The notes under the pieces are model-generated. The model saw only the letters and a list, made by a program, of their open reading frames with translations. It was not told where the DNA came from and did no database searches. Positions 3,640-61,675 of a DNA stretch of 64,000 bases are shown in pieces. A program made the translations under genes and the position numbers. Within the stretch, counting starts at the first letter, position 1. Every line of letters starts with the position of its first letter. The DNA comes from Herpetosiphon geysericola (GTDB lineage: Bacteria > Chloroflexota > Chloroflexia > Chloroflexales > Herpetosiphonaceae): assembly GCF_001306135.1 (NCBI RefSeq), contig NZ_LGKP01000011.1, positions 124,001 through 188,000 of the forward strand, given 5' to 3'.

Positions 3640-3706
3640 GATCCACGAAGAGCACGAAGAACCACGAAGGTTAATTACTTCGTGCTCTTCGTGCTCTTCG
3701 TGGATC
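3640..3706. repeat. CACGAAG repeats arranged as a 21-bp stem hairpin
   Basis: Left arm 3640-3660 (GATCCACGAAGAGCACGAAG...) is the exact reverse complement of 3686-3706. Inside it, CACGAAG (3663-3669) pairs with CTTCGTG (3678-3684). The hairpin lies between convergent genes and could stop transcription from both sides, although neither side has a real T-tract. The units belong to the dispersed CACGAAG family found in other gaps of this window. Confidence 0.9.
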
Positions 3707-11873: not shown

Positions 11874-12136
11874 TAACCACGAAGAGCACGAAGGCGAGTT
11901 GGCTATTGGCTGTAGGCTATAGATCTCAAGTTTTTACCAAAATCTCCGATAGTTGATAGCCTACAGCCTCAATTCCTCTGCGCCTCTGGGTTAAAGTTTT
12001 TAACCACGAAGGACACGAAGTATATTTAATTTTTATCTCTTAGCGTAGCTTCGCGTTCTTCGCGGTTATAACTGAGCCTTTTTGACTTCTGACTTTTGAT
12101 TTTTGTCTTTATCCTTCATCCCTCATCCTTCATAAT
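11874..12136. repeat. Mosaic of short degenerate repeats between NRPS and PPTase genes
   Basis: This gap holds CACGAAG units (11877-11893, 12003-12020), GGCTATTGGCTGTAGGCTATAG and its inverted counterpart TAGCCTACAGCC (11898-11972), CCTCTGCGCCTCTGGGTT (about 11974-11993), GCGTTCTTCGCGGTT (12053-12067), TTCTGACTTTTGATTTTTG (12084-12104) and TATCCTTCATCCCTCATCC units (12110-12136). The last family runs into the stop codon of the NRPS gene. No gene or clear promoter was found in it. Confidence 0.9.
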
Positions 12137-24654: not shown

Positions 24655-25160
24655 CTAGATCAAGTATGAAGGATGAAGTATGAGGGATGAAAGTCAGAAC
24701 AGAAGGCAAAAGTCAGAAAAGAACAGTGAGCAGAGAACATATCAAGTATGAAGGATGAAGGATGAGGGATGAAAGTCAGAACAGAAGGCAAAAGGCAAAA
24801 AAGAACAAAGAACAAAGAACATAAAGGCAAAGGGCAAAATGGGGATCGGGGATCAGGGGTCAGGAATTGAGGCGAGGTTTTAACGCAGAGGCGCAGAGGG
24901 ATGAGGCTATAGGCTGTAGGCTATGGGAAGCATAATTAGGGAAATCTGTGGGAATCTGTGGCCAACGGCAAGGATGAATGATGAGGGATGAGAAGGATGA
25001 AGGATGAAGGGCTATGCTCTCCACATTGAGCATGACGTTCTTTGTGCCCTTCGCGTTCTTCGCGGTTCCATTCTCTTCGTGCTCCTCGTGGATCAAAACC
25101 GATCCCCAGCCCCCAACAACCGACATGCACCTATGTTCTATGTTCTTTGCTCTATGCTTG
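24655..25160. repeat. About 500 bp of mosaic degenerate repeats
   Basis: No gene is seen in this gap. From left to right come AGTATGAAGGATGAAGTATGAG units (24661-24690, 24745-24772), AGTCAGAACAGAAGGCAAAAG units (24691-24716, 24776-24800), AGAACAAAGAACATAAAG units (24720-24740, 24800-24826), GGGGATCAGGGGTCAGG (24841-24864), AACGCAGAGGCGCAGAGG (24882-24899), GAGGCTATAGGCTGTAGGC (24902-24926), AATCTGTGGGAATCTGTGG (24943-24961), GATGAATGATGAGGGATGA (24973-25010), TTCGCGTTCTTCGCGG and TTCGTGCTCCTCGTGGATC (25050-25095), and CTATGTTCTATGTTCTTTG (25131-25150). This is the fullest copy set in the window. Confidence 0.92.
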
Positions 25161-26456: not shown

Positions 26457-27857
26457 ATGGCATTAGCAATTTACAACACCCTTAGCCGCCAGACCGAGCC
26501 GTTTACACCGTTGGTTGCTGACCATGTGTCGATGTATGTCTGTGGGCCGACGGTGTATTCTGATGCTCATATTGGTCATGCGATGTCAGCTGTCGTGTTC
26601 GATGTGGTGCGGCGTTATTTGGAGTGGTCGGGCTATACGGTGCGCCATGTGATGAATTTTACCGATGTTGATGATAAAATTATTCGCCGCGCCAACGAGC
26701 AGGGCCGCGACCCCATGGAATTGGCCGAGAGCTATACCTTGGCCTTTCTTGATCAATTGGGCCAATTGAATGTACTGCCCGCCACGGCTTATCCTCGGGT
26801 TTCAACCACCATTCCGCAAATTATTCAATTTATCGAAGGCTTGATTGCCAAAGATGCAGCGTATCACGCTAGCAATGGCGATGTCTATTTTCGGGTGCGT
26901 GCTGATGAAGATTATGGCAAGCTTTCGCGCCGCGCCGTCGATGATATGCGTTCTGGCGCACGGATCGCTCCCGACGAAGCCAAAGCTGATCCTTTAGATT
27001 TTGCCTTGTGGAAAGCGGCCAAGCCAGGCGAGCCAGCTTGGGAAAGCCCGTGGGGCCAAGGCCGACCTGGTTGGCATATCGAATGCTCGGCCATGAGTTT
27101 GCACGAATTAGCTGAGCAAATTGATATTCATGGCGGTGGTAACGACCTAATCTTCCCCCACCACGAAAATGAAATTGCCCAAACCGAATCGTTGACCGGC
27201 AAGAATTTTGCCCAAATCTGGATGCATAACGGCATGCTGCAATTGGCTGGCGAGAAAATGAGCAAATCGCTGGGCAATTTGATCACGATTGATCAATTTT
27301 TAAGCGAACACTCCGCCGATATTATGCGCTTGCTGGTACTTTCTGGCTCGTATCGTGCGCCATTGGTTTATAATGAAGAGGTTTTGGCCGACACCGAACG
27401 CAAGCTCGAACGCATCATGTCGGCTTTCAAGCCAGCGCATGGCACGACGACCAGCGGCGCGGTGGTTGATACGCTCAACACGATTGTGGCCAAAGCGCCA
27501 ACCGATTTTCGCAGCGCGATGGATAGCGATTTCAATAGTGCGGCGGCGTTGGCTGTATTGTTTGATTTAGTGCGTTCGATCAATGCTGCCCGTGATGCTG
27601 GCGTTGGTGGCGAGCCATTTGCGGCAGCGCAAACTTGCTTGCGCGAACTAGCGGCGGTGCTCGGCTTGCGCTTGGAAGCAAACAGCGCTGGCAAAACCGA
27701 TGCCGCTCCATTTATCGAACTATTGATTGAGCTACGCGCCGAATTGCGCAAAGCCAAGCAATGGGCGCTCTCCGATTTGGTGCGCAACCGCCTGAGCGAG
27801 CTTGATGTGCAGCTCGAAGACGGCCCAAGCGGCACAACGTGGACGACGAAAGGCTAA
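26457..27857 (+). CDS. cysS: Cysteinyl-tRNA synthetase
   Basis: A 466-residue class I synthetase that charges tRNA-Cys. HIGH is at 38-41 in [16 protein letters not shown] at 267-271, and the zinc ligands are Cys29 (YVCGPTVY), Cys in [10 protein letters not shown], and HHEN. The length matches E. coli CysRS (461). The start is supported by GAGGAG upstream and follows cysE by 31 bp. The stop TAA is fused to an AATCAAAAGTCAGAAGG repeat. Confidence 0.97.
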
Positions 27858-28033
27858 AATCAAAAGTCAGAAGGCAAAAGTCAGAAATCAAAACAGAGAA
27901 TACTCTGAAATTTTAACTTTTGCCTTGAATAGAGCTTTTTTGCCTTTTGAACTTTAAGTTTTGCTGATAGACGTATTTGCCTTGTGATTTTGATAGTGTT
28001 TTGACCTTTGACTTTTGACCTTTGCCTTGAATA
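27858..28033. repeat. AAGTCAGAAGGCAAA-family repeats in both orientations
   Basis: The gap begins at the cysS stop with AATCAAAAGTCAGAAGGCAAAAGTC and continues with the inverse form (TTTTAACTTTTGCCTTGAATAG, TTTGACCTTTGACTTTTGACC). TTTTGCCTTGAATAG occurs three times (27918-27932, with variants near 27948 and 28020). TTGACC/TTGACT hexamers in the inverse form could serve as -35 boxes for prmA. Confidence 0.85.
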
Positions 28034-41168: not shown

Positions 41169-43259
41169 ATGGTGGCTCCTTCTGCGCTTGCGTTAATTTT
41201 GCCTGCTGGTATGCCTTTGGCAACCGCGTTGATGATCGTCAATCAACGCCACGTCGATTGGCTGGTGATTACGCCTACGCCCAACCCCAAAGAGGGCGAT
41301 GCTGCCACGTTGATTGCTGTGGCTGAGCTGAAGCAAAGCAATGTTTCAGTCGTCGGGGCCTTGGCTGGCGTTACGGTCACGATCATCCGCATTTTTCCAG
41401 ATCGCACTGCGCATTGGCAGAGCGACCCGGTTGTACCCAAACATACCGACGATTATCGCGGCACAGATGAGACTGGGACTGTAGCTCCGCCGCCAACAAA
41501 CCAATTGCGGGTGATCAATGCTGCACTCTATTATGCAGATGATCCGCCTGATTTGGTTGCTGCGACTTCGACTTTAGCACTAGCAGGCCGCTATCATTTG
41601 CGGATTAATATTGGCCAGCGCCGCAGCGATTCGCGGATAGCTACTGCTGAAGCCTTGCCAACGCCCGAAACAAACGAGGATTTGCCTTTATTTATCAGTG
41701 TGTCGAGCAAAGGCCAGTATGTGGTGTTTGATGCACCGATGCATCATTTGAGTTTGCCACCAAGCGGCGATAGCCAAACCATCCAATTTAGTCTGACTGC
41801 CAACCAAGTGATCGATGATCTGCCTCTGTGGATTAATGTTTATTATAATTGGACTCTGCTGCAAACGCTTGAATTGCATTTCAAAATCACCCCCGTTGAG
41901 AGCGATTTGCCAGAGCCATTATTGGCACGGGTCAGCTATTCGCGCACGGCTGGCTTTGCAGATTTAGCATCAATTCGGCCCAAGCAAATCAGCTGCACAT
42001 TAACTGGCGATGGCGAGTTTTATCGCATGAGCGTGGCATGGCCAGCTGAAGGCACAAGCACGCGCCGCGAACAACGTGGCTTGAATGTGGTGTTGCCAAT
42101 CAATGCAGCCAGCTTGAGCAATGAAATTCTCCAAGCTCGCAACACGCTCTACGATATTACTTGGCAGCCATCGTATCGCCAAGGCACGCGCGGCAAGTTG
42201 GCTGAGCGGCGCGAAAGCTTGTATCAATTGGCAGTTGTTGGTAATCGGCTGTATGCTGCGTTATTTGCCCCAAGCGGCGCAACTGCTGAACAAGCAGCAT
42301 CGTTGGCGGCCTTGCGTGCATGGCTCGAAACAATTAGCGCTGAACAAAGCCTACCAGCCTTGCAGATTATTCACCAAGGTATGCCCAGCGGCGTGCCATG
42401 GGGCTTGCTCTACCCCGAGCCAGTCAACGACCCGAACAGTGTTGATTTGAGCAAATTTTGGGGTTGTCGCTATCGTTTAGAGATTATGACCACGCAGCTG
42501 GCCCAAAATGCGCAACAAGCGCCAAGTGCTCAGCAGCAATTGCAGATTGGCGGCGGAACCTATAATTTTCGCGTGCCAATCGCCGATAGTGTGGTTGATG
42601 TAACCCAACAGCACCGTGCAGCCTTGCAAACGTGGAGTGCTAGCCGTGGCAATGTTACGCTTGATCTGCGGGAGGCTGGCGATAAAACCAGCCTTGGCCC
42701 GTTATTCAGCCAAAGCGATATTGTTTATATGTATTGCCATGGCCACACCGCCAAAACTCCCGATGATACCTCGGATTGGGTGGCCAAGTTTCGTGATCAG
42801 ATGGCGCGTTTGGATGAAGGTGTGCGCAGCAAATACAGCGATTTGCTGAGTTTGAGCCAAAAAGAATATCAGCCAAGTGACCCAAATAGTAGCGATAGCT
42901 GGCTGAAATGGAACCAAAGCCTGTTGCCGTTGCGCTTGCTGAGCCAATGGGGCCTGAAACTCGAACGCAAACCGTTGGTGATTTTGAATATGTGTGAATC
43001 GGCCCAAGTGCTGCCAACCTTGAGCAGCGGTTTTATTCCTTTTTTTAGCCAACTTGGCGCACGCGGTATTTTGGGCACCGAATGCCCAATGCTCGCGCCA
43101 TTTGCGGCAGCCTTTGGCCAAAAATTAATCGAACGCTTGGGTCTGGGCGAGGCGATGGGCGATATTCTGCCAGCCCTGCGGCGCTACTTTATCGAAGAAG
43201 AGCGCAACCCCTTGGGTTTGGCCTATACCTATTATGGCGATGCTGATGCCAAAGTTTAA
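41169..43259 (+). CDS. CHAT-domain caspase-like protease
   Basis: A 696-residue protein; start ATG 41169 with AGGAGGG 7 bp upstream. The C-terminal CHAT domain has the catalytic dyad His524 (VYMYCHGH) and Cys609 (VILNMCESAQ). It ends with the CHAT hallmark GILGTECPMLAPFAAAFGQ and NPLGLAYTYYGDA. Upstream comes IIHQGMPSGVPWGLLYP, and before that a beta-rich region (about 115-300) and a separate N-terminal domain of about 75 residues. CHAT proteases act in regulated cell death and defence in several bacterial systems. The next gene codes a small protein with a hydrophobic segment, a possible substrate or effector. Its last 26 bp are repeated downstream. Confidence 0.9.
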   Translation: MVAPSALALILPAGMPLATALMIVNQRHVDWLVITPTPNPKEGDAATLIAVAELKQSNVSVVGALAGVTVTIIRIFPDRTAHWQSDPVVPKHTDDYRGTDETGTVAPPPTNQLRVINAALYYADDPPDLVAATSTLALAGRYHLRINIGQRRSDSRIATAEALPTPETNEDLPLFISVSSKGQYVVFDAPMHHLSLPPSGDSQTIQFSLTANQVIDDLPLWINVYYNWTLLQTLELHFKITPVESDLPEPLLARVSYSRTAGFADLASIRPKQISCTLTGDGEFYRMSVAWPAEGTSTRREQRGLNVVLPINAASLSNEILQARNTLYDITWQPSYRQGTRGKLAERRESLYQLAVVGNRLYAALFAPSGATAEQAASLAALRAWLETISAEQSLPALQIIHQGMPSGVPWGLLYPEPVNDPNSVDLSKFWGCRYRLEIMTTQLAQNAQQAPSAQQQLQIGGGTYNFRVPIADSVVDVTQQHRAALQTWSASRGNVTLDLREAGDKTSLGPLFSQSDIVYMYCHGHTAKTPDDTSDWVAKFRDQMARLDEGVRSKYSDLLSLSQKEYQPSDPNSSDSWLKWNQSLLPLRLLSQWGLKLERKPLVILNMCESAQVLPTLSSGFIPFFSQLGARGILGTECPMLAPFAAAFGQKLIERLGLGEAMGDILPALRRYFIEEERNPLGLAYTYYGDADAKV
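43233..43258 (+). repeat. Direct repeat copy 1: the CHAT gene 3' end
   Basis: 26 bp from TATGGCGATG to AAAGTTTA, the last codons of the CHAT gene. An identical copy lies at 43627-43652 and a shortened one at 43691-43708. Confidence 0.95.
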
Positions 43260-43612
43260 TGAAGGATGAGGGATGAAGGAAAGGCAGAAATCAAAAGTCA
43301 AAAGTCAAAAAGAACAGAGAGCATAGAGCAAGGATGAATTATGAGGGATGAAGTAAAGGCAGAAGGCAGAAGGCAAAAGTCAGAAGTCAGAAGGCAAAAA
43401 GAAAAGAGAACAGAGAGCATAGAACATAATCTTAAAATCTGTGCCAATCTGTGGCTAAAAAATGGTTATTCGTGTAATTCGTGCAATTCGTGGCTAAAAA
43501 ATGTCCTTCGTGCTCTTCGTGTTCTTCGCGGTTCCGATCCTTTGTGTGCCTTCGTGGCCTTCTTAGTGCCTATTTTTAACGCAGAGGCGCAAAGAAGCAA
43601 AGGATGAAGGAT
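43260..43612. repeat. Mosaic of short degenerate repeats after the CHAT gene
   Basis: Starting at the CHAT stop: GAAGGATGAGGGATGAAGG (43261-43280), AAATCAAAAGTCAAAAGTC (43288-43308), AGAACAGAGAGCATAGAGC (43310-43330), AGGCAGAAGGCAGAAGGCAAA (43357-43399), AGAGAACAGAGAGCATAG (43405-43423), AATCTGTGCCAATCTGTGG (43436-43454), ATTCGTGTAATTCGTGCAATTCG (43468-43490), CTTCGTGCTCTTCGTGTTC (43504-43524) and AACGCAGAGGCGCAAAGAAG (43579-43597). No gene is seen. Confidence 0.92.
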
Positions 43613-43626
43613 ACTACGCCGACGAC

Positions 43627-43652
43627 TATGGCGATGCTGATGCCAAAGTTTA
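43627..43652 (+). repeat. Direct repeat copy 2 of the CHAT gene 3' end
   Basis: Identical over 26 bp to 43233-43258. It is non-coding here and ends just before the tRNA-like fragment. The 368 bp between the copies hold the repeat mosaic. Confidence 0.95.
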
Positions 43653-43659
43653 GGCGAGG

Positions 43660-43685
43660 TGGTGGAGATAGCGGGAATCGAACCC
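43660..43685 (-). pseudogene. tRNA 3' end remnant (half T-arm, acceptor strand, CCA)
   Basis: On the minus strand the segment reads GGGTTCGATTCCCGC followed by TATCTCCACCA. This is the last 26 nt of a tRNA: the three inner T-stem pairs, the T-loop TTCGATT, the acceptor 3' strand, discriminator A and encoded CCA. It resembles tRNA-Ala ends. Pairing breaks beyond the inner T-stem, and no matching 5' acceptor (TGGAGATA-like) exists about 75 bp away, so it is not a complete tRNA. Such 3' ends are classic attachment sites of integrating elements. Confidence 0.8.
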
Positions 43686-43690
43686 TTGTT

Positions 43691-49527: not shown

Positions 49528-49700
49528 GCATCAGGGGCTAGGGGTCAGGGATCGGGGATCAGGCGGCAGCTGTAACCGCGAAGAGCACGAAGAACCCGAA
49601 GGTTGAAACCGCGAAGGCCACGAAGAGCGCGAAGGGGATAAGTTTGGAGTATTGGCTTTTGGTCAATTATTCGTGTAATTTGTGTAATTCGTGGCTAAAT
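49528..49700. repeat. Mosaic of short repeats after the STAS gene
   Basis: From the stop codon on: GCATCAGGGGCTAGGGGTCAGG and GATCGGGGATCAGG (49528-49562), ACCGCGAAGAGCACGAAGAAC (49574-49598), ACCGCGAAGGCCACGAAGAGC (49609-49633), TATTGGCTTTTGG, and ATTCGTGTAATTTGTGTAATTCG (49670-49692). No gene is seen between 49528 and 49818. Confidence 0.9.
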
Positions 49701-49753
49701 TAATCTCTTTAGCCAATCCCGATCAATGACCCAACAACGACTGTCCGCTTGCC

Positions 49754-49793
49754 AAAAAAGAGATCGAGCTACGAGCAGCCCGATCTCTTTTTT
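49754..49793. terminator. Bidirectional terminator
   Basis: AAAAAAGAGATCG (49754-49766) pairs perfectly with CGATCTCTTTTTT (49781-49793) over a 14-nt loop. A/T runs on both sides allow it to stop transcription from both directions between convergent genes. Confidence 0.95.
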
Positions 49794-49818
49794 ATTCCTA
49801 CTACTTATGCTCTATGTT

Positions 49819-50262
49819 CTATGTTCTGAGCTCTATGCTTTGTGGTCCGCTCCAATTGCGGCTTGGGTCGATCAAGTTGGGAATTGCCTCGAAAAACATG
49901 CGCACTGAATGTTCTTCGCCAGCAGCGATATGTTTATAGACCTTGTTAAACGGATAAACCCAAATATCGCCGCCTTGGACGGGCAGGGCAATGCCCCAAT
50001 CGTTGCTCTCGCGTTCGAGGCCCCAACGTCCGCCGTAGTTGGCAATAATGCAGGCGCCCAAAAACGCACCGAGCGATTGTACCAAACTTGGGGGCACATT
50101 CTCAGGGTCGTGATTGGGCCGAATTTGTTCGATATAGGTATTGAGCCATTTCACTGCCAAGTGATTATACTCAAGTTCGATGCCAAGCTGGCTTTGCACT
50201 GAGCGCACAAAGTGTTGCGCCAAGTGCTCTAGGCCAGCGATAATTTGTTCATGTTGCGACAT
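49819..50262 (-). CDS. Uncharacterised soluble protein, DUF3806-like
   Basis: A 147-residue soluble protein with no membrane segment. The middle reads QSLGAFLGACIIANYGGRWG, then WGIALPVQGGDIWVYPFNKVYKHIAAGEE, a pattern recalling DUF3806-type domains; this is a weak match by eye. The last eight residues (PQSIELRT) and the stop TAG come from a CAAAGCATAGAGCTCAGAACATAG repeat, so the C-terminus was probably remodelled by repeat insertion. It lies 14 bp downstream of the PATAN-domain gene in one operon. Confidence 0.7.
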   Translation of the reverse strand: MSQHEQIIAGLEHLAQHFVRSVQSQLGIELEYNHLAVKWLNTYIEQIRPNHDPENVPPSLVQSLGAFLGACIIANYGGRWGLERESNDWGIALPVQGGDIWVYPFNKVYKHIAAGEEHSVRMFFEAIPNLIDPSRNWSGPQSIELRT

Positions 50263-54664: not shown

Positions 54665-54925
54665 TTATTCCTAGTATAAAGCAAAGTCAAAAAGAACATA
54701 GAACAGAGAGCATAGAACATAGGGCAAGAGATGAGGGATCAGGATTCAGGGATGAGGCTATAGGCTTTGGGCTATGGGAACAATAATCAAGCTAATCTGT
54801 GTCATCTGTGGCAAAAAATAGTTATTCGTGGAATTCGTGGAATTCGTGGCTAAAAAATTAGCCTTCGCGTCCTTCGTATTCTTCGCGGTTTCTTTCCCTT
54901 CGTTCGTTTCATCGATTAAACTGAT
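54665..54925. repeat. Mosaic of short repeats upstream of the CPBP gene
   Basis: Contains AGTATAAAGCAAAGTCAAAAAG, AGAACATAGAACAGAGAGCATAG (54692-54721), GATGAGGGATCAGGATTCAGG (54730-54749), GAGGCTATAGGCTTTGGGC (54753-54773), AATCTGTGTCATCTGTGG (54793-54811), ATTCGTGGAATTCGTGGAATTCG (54824-54848) and CTTCGCGTCCTTCGTATTC (54862-54882). No gene between 54639 and 55049. Confidence 0.9.
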
Positions 54926-56701: not shown

Positions 56702-57196
56702 ATGGAATATGGATTAAACGCAACCCAGCGCGCGGCAATGCTGGCGATGTGGCAAAACCTGAGCGAGCAAGAGTTGCCAGAAGAGCGGCTTTCGTTTGCT
56801 GGCTTGCAGGCCTTGCCACGCTTGGTCGAGCAAGCCCTGAAGAATGGCGATCAAGCGGGCCTCACCGCCAGCCTGATCAATCCACTGTATTGGCATCAAA
56901 CGGCGAGTTATGGCCATGGTTTGTTGGCCCGCGAGCGCCGAGTGCCGATTGATCATGCGGCCTATCGTTTGAGTTGGTGGCTTTGGCTGCGGCTCTACAA
57001 TCTTGCCAACGCCAAGCTTTGGTTTGATCAAGGCCAGCGCTATGCCACACTGGTGCTGTTTAACGCAGAGCATCAAGAGCCAGCCACCTGCCCGCTAAAT
57101 AGTGAAACAACCGTCGAACTAGCAGCAGTGCTTGAACAGCGTTTGCTGGTGCCAAGTGGCTTTCATTGTCGCCATGGGCTGGTGGTAAGAGCATAG
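56702..57196 (+). CDS. Uncharacterised soluble protein
   Basis: A 164-residue protein with Trp/Leu-rich central part (YRLSWWLWLRLYNLANAKLWF) and no clear membrane segment or known motif. Its ribosome binding site is GAGGA. The stop codon is unusual: GTAAGAGCATAG belongs to an AGAGCATAGAGCAAAC repeat, so the last residues (VVRA) and the stop come from the repeat family that fills the gap behind it. Function unknown. Confidence 0.7.
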   Translation: MEYGLNATQRAAMLAMWQNLSEQELPEERLSFAGLQALPRLVEQALKNGDQAGLTASLINPLYWHQTASYGHGLLARERRVPIDHAAYRLSWWLWLRLYNLANAKLWFDQGQRYATLVLFNAEHQEPATCPLNSETTVELAAVLEQRLLVPSGFHCRHGLVVRA

Positions 57197-57540
57197 AGCA
57201 AACAACATAGAACATAAGGCAACCGAAACCACGAAGGACACGAAGAGCGCGAAGAACACGGAAGTGGCTATTGGCATTTGGCTATCGGGATTTCTGAGCT
57301 GCCACATCATGTTCCGATCGCCCATAGCCTTAGCCACGTTGACTTTATGTTCTATGCTCTCTGTTCTATGTTCTTATTTCGCCCTTTATCCTTCATAATT
57401 CATCCTTTCCTATGTTCTTCTTTTTGCTTTCTGCCTTCTGCCTTATGATTTGGCCTTCATCCCTCATCCTTCATAATTCTGACTTTTGATTTCTGATTTC
57501 TGCCTTCAGACTTTAGTCCTTTGACTTCTGACTTTTGATT
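57187..57540. repeat. Mosaic of short repeats between two genes, merging into the ileS promoter
   Basis: Contains AGAGCATAGAGCAAACAACATAG (57189-57211), ACCACGAAGGACACGAAGAGC (57229-57249), GTGGCTATTGGCATTTGGC (57264-57284), ATGTTCTATGCTCTCTGTTC (57349-57370), TATCCTTCATAATTCATCC (57387-57407), TTTTGCTTTCTGCCTTCTGCC (57421-57442), CTTCATCCCTCATCCTTCATAATTC (57452-57478) and TTCTGACTTTTGATTTCTG units (57478-57540). The last unit supplies the -35 box of the ileS promoter. Confidence 0.9.
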
Positions 57541-61447: not shown

Positions 61448-61675
61448 TCAGGGATCGTGGGTCAGGTATCGGGGATCGCTGAAAAGCCGAGGATTAGGCT
61501 TCAACGCAAAGGCGCAGAGAAGCCATGGCTGATGGCTATTGGCTTTGGGCTATCGGAACATTGTTCGTGGAATTCGTGCAATCTGTGGCTAAAATGCCCT
61601 TCGTGGACTTCGCGTCCTTCGCGGTTCCCATGCTTCGTGGCCCTTCGTGTCCTTCGTGGATCAAATCCCGCTACA
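61448..61675. repeat. Mosaic of short repeats between the DUF952 and amylase genes
   Basis: ATCAGGGATCGTGGGTCAGG and ATCGGGGATCG (61447-61479), AACGCAAAGGCGCAGAGAAG (61503-61522), GATGGCTATTGGCTTTGGGC (61528-61549), ATTCGTGCAATCTGTGG (61570-61588), CTTCGTGGACTTCGCGTCC (61600-61618) and CTTCGTGTCCTTCGTGGATC (61642-61661). A TACAAT at 61672-61677 may be the -10 box of the amylase gene, without a clear -35. Confidence 0.88.

Follow-up and report, generated by a model that had tools for sequence, protein, structure and literature searches.

Cyanobacterial STRR are heptanucleotide repeats, the SDR of Nostoc are dispersed intergenic elements of 20-30 nt, and a CRISPR consists of an invariant repeat, about 24-40 nt long, alternating with unique spacers of comparable length. 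REP and BIME are short extragenic repeats for which binding of IHF, gyrase and Pol I as well as Rho-dependent termination have been reported; in the passages compared, REPs include an imperfectly palindromic sequence and are linked to transposases of the Y1 type (PMC2817692). Rehm et al. described, in the passages compared, the G-rich heptamers GGGGAYT and GGGAATC in Nostoc and Xanthomonas, and three heptamers for Calothrix (PMC4692102). The TAACTGA heptamer repeats of marine Beggiatoaceae, described by MacGregor, are presented in the part compared as a single family that lies mostly just upstream of start codons (PMC4679880). In Geobacter metallireducens, classes 1-3 of "predicted global regulator binding sites" comprise 24, 21 and 8 pairs; in the passages compared, the authors gave the three site sets as unique to that genome and proposed IHF/HU (PMC2700814). 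In the passages of these papers that were compared, short heptamer repeats are mostly treated one genome at a time, and polymerase slippage is given as a possible source.

The window, which is the whole stretch of 64,000 bp that was analysed (C46:124001-188000 of a 6,140,412-bp Herpetosiphon genome in 46 contigs), contains 51 arrays of short tandem units. The initial annotation had seen recurring phrases in nine gaps, and 49 of the 51 arrays lie there. The phrases are oriented, have a consensus of about 20-40 nt and are built from two to four degenerate units of 7-9 nt; some consensus phrases carry a head such as TTTTTTAGCCAC or AACC. The units of the nine families, which had been put at 9-12 bp, are shorter (Table 1). 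The + sign was fixed beforehand as the more purine-rich strand.

Table 1. Units of the nine families and arrays in the gaps of the window (window positions)
Feature	Position	Strand	Remark
Family A, ATGARGG			7-bp unit
Family B, AARKCAR			7-bp unit
Family C, AGARCAW			7-bp unit
Family D, GGCTNTN			7-bp unit
Family E, GGGRTCR			7-bp unit
Family F, CGCAGAGR			8-bp unit
Family G, CACGAAGNN			9-bp unit, some spacings 10
Family H, CACGAATNN			9-bp unit, some spacings 10
Family I, CACAGATNN			9-bp unit, some spacings 10
Simple inverted pair G+ / G-	3644..3702		convergent genes either side
Mosaic G+ D+ D- G+ G- B- A-	11878..12133		
82-bp tandem duplication, A-B-C run (ATGARGG, then AARKCAR, then AGARCAW)	24659..24823	+	TRF period 82, 2.0 copies, 91% match
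A+ arrays inside 82-bp duplication	24666-24690, 24748-24773	+	
B+ arrays inside 82-bp duplication	24702-24715, 24784-24797	+	
C+ array at 82-bp duplication	24802-24821	+	
E+ (GGGRTCR), F+ (CGCAGAGR), D+ (GGCTNTN) arrays	24842..24924	+	
Right side of 24.9-kb gap: I- 24944-24960, G- 25049-25064, E- 25101-25113, C- 25134-25153	24944..25153	-	
B array straight after stop codon, 27856-27890; degenerate inverted partner, 27999-28028	27856..28028		partner read by eye
Mosaic A+ B+ C+ A+ B+ C+ I- H- G- F+	43259..43594		
Mosaic E+ G+ ... C-, H-like stretch in between	49534..49827		
Mosaic C+ D+ I- H-	54693..54848		divergent gap
Mosaic C+ G+ ... C- B- A- B-	57188..57535		
Mosaic F+ D+ ... G-	61505..61658		

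Two-unit tandem matches were counted in the 253-kb contig: 19 for family A, 69 for B, 41 for C, 38 for D, 13 for E, 3 for F, 13 for G, 14 for H and 6 for I. Second-order Markov simulations of the whole contig (n=5) averaged 0-1.0 matches per family, simulations of its non-coding part (n=50) gave at most one match each, and reversed units gave 0-1 matches in the real contig. The real two-unit matches were mostly non-coding. Genes were called as longest ORFs rather than with a trained gene finder, and 29 "coding" matches lay partly inside small, probably spurious ORFs. Over the whole genome, the family A pattern GGATGARGGATGA had 288+194 = 482 matches against 0+1 when reversed, and the patterns of families C and D had 183 and 132 matches, each against 0 reversed. 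A 9-mer enrichment scan was dominated by ordinary coding words and did not bring out the phrases. The counts bear out the initial annotation in its central observation: at least nine families of intergenic repeats are real genome-wide and far above chance.

On contigs C1 and C46 (914 kb) there were 557 arrays in 146 clusters, and 114 of the 405 gaps of at least 60 bp carried arrays (27 of 60 convergent, 67 of 252 tandem and 20 of 93 divergent gaps). The arrays lie close to stop codons, at a median distance of 13 nt with 73/121 within 20 nt; the median distance to the start codon was 76 nt, and 15/107 were within 20 nt.

The arrays follow one polarity. In gaps having two or more arrays, the first was + and the last - in 92 of 100; + before - prevailed in 95 gaps and - before + in 0. 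Within-gap pairs read + then - in 608 of 669 cases (0.909), compared with 0.50 when orientations were shuffled within gaps (maximum 0.587 of 1000). By gap type, +- and -+ pairs stood at 358:47 in tandem, 91:5 in convergent and 159:9 in divergent gaps; 18 of the 20 divergent array gaps were +-, the remaining two being one single and one --. The chosen signs rank third among 256 sign choices, and H and I flipped fit slightly better (0.931 vs 0.909). In the 24.9-kb gap a single A+ array at 24980-25008, between I- and G-, violates the rule. The purine content of array gaps was 56% in the left halves and 44% in the right ones, with the left higher in 99/114; among the array-less gaps examined, the left half was purine-richer in just 31/72. 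The families also have a preferred place. The edge-to-centre order A B C E F G D H I, the best by exhaustive search, fits 465 of 568 ordered pairs, and the best of 100 shuffles, ordered by local search, reached 364/568. The claim that the phrases are joined in changing order and orientation is therefore wrong.

Gaps with one family per side had the same family on both sides in 12/18 cases (expected 5.1, p 0.0008). When all 97 two-sided gaps were taken, family sharing was not above chance (49, expected 60.6), and the outermost families of the two sides were independent (alike 17/92, expected 17.3). RNA folding was compared in 70 array gaps and 70 other gaps, with z taken from two-base-block shuffles (10 per gap). 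The median z of array gaps was -4.55 (n 23) in convergent gaps, against -1.28 in array-less ones (n 3 only). In tandem gaps it was -2.10 (n 39), not better than the -2.48 of array-less gaps (n 43). Folding was absent in divergent gaps, where the medians were -0.41 with arrays (n 8) and -0.72 without (n 24). Because of the family-sharing and folding results, we read the basic element as an inverted pair and the large gaps as mosaics, which keep polarity and not complementarity. Strict complementary hairpins were rejected as the cause of the polarity in composite gaps, whose sides do not share families. The two arms of simple pairs co-varied weakly (0.929 vs 0.916 for GAAG pairs). U-tract terminators were equally rare in gaps with arrays (7/118) and without (16/237). 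Termination can account for the arrays only in part, because divergent gaps, which have no gene end, share the polarity and do not fold.

CRISPR was ruled out, as the tandem-repeat periods in the gaps of the window are 7-10, 14, 16 and 21, plus the 82-bp duplication. The likeness to the SDR of Nostoc, going by their general description, is that of dispersed intergenic elements. Like STRR, the Herpetosiphon arrays are intergenic tandem heptanucleotides, with period 7 in families A-E. Unlike the STRR type, identical neighbouring units fall below expectation in Herpetosiphon for A (18 vs 28.7), C (34 vs 45.8) and, weakly, E (6 vs 11.1); D, G and H are neutral, and B is the exception, being somewhat homogenised (37 vs 27.2). 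Family E resembles GGGGAYT, and inverted copies occur with the Nostoc and Xanthomonas heptamers too; an ordered family mosaic, which Herpetosiphon has, is not described in the passages compared (PMC4692102). Like the TAACTGA repeats, these are short intergenic heptamer arrays with a patchy distribution over phyla; unlike them, as they are described in the part compared, the arrays are stop-proximal rather than upstream of start codons and comprise nine families rather than one (PMC4679880).

Like BIME, the extragenic repeats of Herpetosiphon are combined in both orientations as a mosaic. Unlike REP, their units form 7-9-nt tandem phrases, and no palindromic unit was seen in the consensus phrases. 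The two genomes richest in family A, G003 (772 matches) and G005 (784), have no match to the Y1 transposase (PF01797, RAYT) at E 1e-3, on which ground mobilisation by RAYT was rejected. REP/BIME is the nearest functional analogue, but membership among REP fails. Of the traits of a MITE, inverted arms are present and a 26-bp direct repeat flanks one site; no general duplication was noticed in the gaps read. Rfam covariance models gave 0 matches above gathering score in the window, and a search of the open-licence literature with the phrase strings, and on Herpetosiphon intergenic repeats, did not find these phrases. The view that the repeats are neither CRISPR nor REP holds with one qualification, namely that the mosaic works like a BIME; that they are not one known element also stands. 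The repeats are a variant of interspersed mosaic repeats with a strong architecture, and they include a family that crosses phyla. Genome-wide counts against reversed controls, orthologous gaps and loci in other phyla point to one common architecture (stop-codon-proximal, purine arm first, inverted pairs).

We compared the array gaps with those of the sister species G003, whose flanks are about 93% identical. Arrays were present in both genomes in 39 comparisons (37 distinct gaps), in our genome only in 2, in G003 only in 3 (two of which concern the same gap of ours) and in neither in 145. In the 37 shared gaps the overlap of oriented family content was 0.546, against 0.179 for random pairing; the content was identical in 3/37 and had nothing in common in 3/37. 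Thus the G003 counterpart of the simple pair at 3644..3702 reads C+ D+ D- E-, and that of the 54.8-kb gap C+ D+ H- G-. At 27.9 kb, B arrays are found in our genome and G001, and an A-family inverted pair, with both arms changed, in G002, G003 and G004. Occupied gaps therefore persist as their contents change. Phrases are also common to different gaps: 111 of the 114 array gaps match another array gap (E 1e-5), and the matches include multi-phrase runs with their linkers, for example 119 nt at 88% identity reading B+ C+ I- H-. Since slots persist, contents change, phrases are shared and units are mostly not homogenised, whole phrases have probably been copied between fixed slots. None of the comparisons made showed a copying event directly.

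We hold, with about even confidence, that the arrays are mosaic interspersed repeats at gene ends, with phrases copied between occupied gaps, and that they probably serve as a bidirectional gene-end signal. The basic form would be an inverted pair with its purine-rich arm first on either strand, mostly just downstream of stop codons, and in Herpetosiphon nine families would occupy common gaps. Whole phrases and multi-phrase runs would be copied between already occupied gaps, presumably by ectopic recombination or gene conversion, and through such copying between slots a gap would retain its mosaic as its words change. The changes would come neither mainly from local slippage nor, for the most part, from insertions into gaps that had been free of arrays. 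The likely role is that of an RNA hairpin or a protein-bound pair, which would end or insulate transcription in both directions. Three points are thereby opened to testing: the agent that spreads the phrases, the factor that reads them, and their possible part in ending transcription where U-tract terminators are few.

The mosaic at 43.3 kb lies between 26-bp direct repeats of a gene end (43233-43258 and 43627-43652, read by eye), and the gap is without arrays in three relatives (G001, G002 and G004); new occupation or loss therefore does happen. Positions 43655-43686 of the window, between gene-end copies, look like the 3' part of a minus-strand tRNA gene. In G002 a similar filler lies between two gene-end copies at this gap, and arrays are absent.

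Beyond the window's genome, loci of H. giganteus and H. llansteffanensis bear the same phrase mixture. Family C was found in six Herpetosiphon genomes only (41 relatives searched). Family A had a match in 30/60 genomes, many having one or two; a few other genomes of the order have it in large numbers, and most have little or none of it. The 28-nt phrase AACCACGAAKNNCACGAAKNNCACGAAK, of G/H type, occurs in at least 120 stretches of a collection of 257 Gb, in which about 0.015 matches are expected by chance (arithmetic, uniform bases). Assigned by hand from organism names, the 120 stretches place the CACRRAKNN family in about 13 phyla among the matches listed: Pseudomonadota, Desulfobacterota, Acidobacteriota, Planctomycetota, Bacteroidota, Nitrospinota, Chloroflexota, Verrucomicrobiota with Kiritimatiellota and Lentisphaerota, Gemmatimonadota, KSB1, Latescibacterota, Hydrogenedentota and Sumerlaeota. 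In one representative per phylum the phrase lay outside ORFs of 130 aa or had an inverted unit downstream; the Chloroflexota representative is inside an ORF, and this phylum is counted on the strength of the genus to which the window belongs. A match in Myxococcota (Kofleriaceae) was not counted because it looks like a coding Thr-Thr-Lys repeat. The sources among the matches listed are mostly metagenome bins, plus cultured isolates (Singulisphaera, Thioalkalivibrio denitrificans, Methylobacter luteus, Mariprofundus micogutta and Stieleria).

The cross-phylum phrases show a similar placement. Among the matches listed, 110/136 phrases lay outside ORFs of at least 130 aa, against 20% of random positions, and 26/136 inside; where both neighbours were known, the gaps were convergent in 30 cases, tandem in 41 and divergent in 5. 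An inverted partner was found downstream of 64 and upstream of 6 of the 141 phrases among the matches listed, a count that takes in all 120 stretches including Herpetosiphon and enters palindromic elements from both arms. The Herpetosiphon stretches L105, L111, L161 and L163 were left out of the ORF and gap-type, co-occurrence, pairing, arm and unit-similarity counts; L174, also Herpetosiphon, stayed in. The other families were almost absent around these loci among the matches listed; therefore the mixture is a Herpetosiphon trait, as far as seen. The initial annotation had proposed a scan of related and unrelated phyla, and its outcome was not foreseen there: single families (G/H, A) reach other genera or phyla and the mixture does not.

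In viral contigs, family A pairs read + then - in 31 cases and - then + in 0, and family C had only 2 stretches, neither with other families. The CACGGA[GT] phrases of IMG/VR contigs (L392-L488), which may contain host DNA, have the same AACC head and are mostly unpaired; of the pairs, 5 read + then - and 1 - then + (97 loci examined of 98 stretches).

The repeats may instead be non-autonomous mobile elements, that is, inverted pairs moved by a putative transposase, also between species, and nesting into older copies. We consider this possible, though doubtful. The spread is indeed sporadic: CACRRAKNN x3, which had 1,623 matches vs 6 reversed summed over 44 genomes chosen because they match, was found in 13/120 Pseudomonadota genomes (0 reversed) of a set not chosen for the match, centre genome included, and in 27/151 Chloroflexota genomes, five of them of the own genus and the centre included, with reversed matches in 4 genomes. 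Within one genus, G030 has 146 matches, and G017, G023 and G028 have 0, 1 and 0. The AACC head stands on both arms of inverted pairs, though the search pattern demands one arm only, and the 43.3-kb block, which lies between direct repeats and has no arrays in three relatives, also speaks for this reading. However, the sister species share their occupied gaps (39 comparisons vs 2 and 3), contents change piecemeal, no general target duplication was seen in the gaps read, and the Y1 family, the one transposase family scanned, was without a match in G003 and G005.

A bolder extension, which we regard as quite unlikely, is that oriented phrases of 7-9-nt units form a class, without a common name in the papers compared, that moves horizontally through about thirteen phyla and is written, purine arm first, into gene ends by a putative common machinery, either a transposase or a repeat-synthesising reverse transcriptase acting at broken ends; Herpetosiphon would then have accumulated at least nine families, which recombine as a grammar.

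Another explanation, in our estimate an unlikely one, would be that the arrays are paired sites to which a nucleoid or regulatory protein binds and which selection maintains, along the lines suggested for IHF/HU in Geobacter metallireducens. Like the Geobacter sites in the passages compared, the Herpetosiphon repeats are tandem 7-9-nt units paired on opposite strands at variable distance. By hand comparison with the printed consensus, Geobacter class 2, TCTCCGTS[Y], is the complement of CACGGAGA, which is CACGGAG here, and class 3, MTYCTGA, is the complement of TCAGAAG, which corresponds to the B units (PMC2700814). The persistence of slots whose sequence varies is also consistent with such sites. 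Unlike the Geobacter sets as described there, the repeats number hundreds of sites, mix nine families in their gaps and include one family in about 13 phyla. The interchange of nine unlike families in one slot would be hard for one protein to accommodate, and the sporadic presence within genera also speaks against this explanation.

An origin by ordinary local slippage, as for STRR, is improbable. The 7-9-nt periodicity fits it, and outside Herpetosiphon neighbouring units are more alike than expected, for A in viral contigs (130 vs 90.6) and for cross-phylum G (23 vs 12.8) and H. Some 14-nt differences between our genome and G003 show 7-11 nt of homology; in the wider look at microhomology around indels, alignments of replaced segments made artificial gaps. 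In Herpetosiphon, however, the unit-to-unit alternation of A and C disfavours slippage as the main source, with B leaning the opposite way, and the same phrases, some with linkers, stand at many sites in a fixed order and polarity.

Bacterial reverse transcriptases (RTs) that add repeats exist; DRT10 adds 9-nt repeats, according to the part of the source compared (PMC12632851). Each of the 6/6 Herpetosiphon genomes has one long RT ORF (about 800 aa; open frame of 800-812 aa) with a partial RVT_1 match. In the window's genome, the one in which this match was examined, a 791-aa ORF at L491:1987-4362 (G000:C21), downstream of a hisG-like gene, matches PADLOC RT_UG37 over nearly its full length with 1200 bits. 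Similarly long RT ORFs with the same partial match occur in G007 and G016, both without family A matches. RVT_1 had no match in 8/24 phrase-bearing genomes, some of which are draft assemblies, and RTs present earlier may have disappeared; G097 and G293, among the genomes scanned, appear identical (same coordinates). The 7-kb stretches that surround the RT contained no arrays in either G000 or G003. That the arrays are scars of repeat-synthesising reverse transcription, with tandem-repeat cDNA added to both broken DNA ends that were then joined, would explain an inward polarity with non-matching sides, yet it is highly improbable, as the RT association is unsupported on the three counts just given and the phrases look copied rather than newly synthesised.

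Several other repeats were met with. Pure (GGCTATC)n arrays, which fit the family D pattern, occur in G013, G014, G017 and G020; the reversed control is void for them because reversing the pattern merely rotates it. The G020 pairs within about 260 bp (C35, C40, C51, C56, C59 and C85) read - then + among the matches listed, a polarity opposite to that of D in Herpetosiphon. Octamer arrays, (GTTCTTCT)n, were seen at L081 and L083 of G059, which belongs to the same order. In array-less orthologues of C1:437417-437892 (in G003) and C1:323959-324492 (in G001), other palindromic G/C-rich repeats are found instead, as though such gaps could take up palindromic filler of any kind. A repeat of about 67-80 bp (e.g. 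G000:C1:321564-321643) with about 85-100% identity is present at dozens of places or more in five Herpetosiphon genomes; some of its copies are 160-260 bp apart among the matches listed, and it probably is a separate repeat family.
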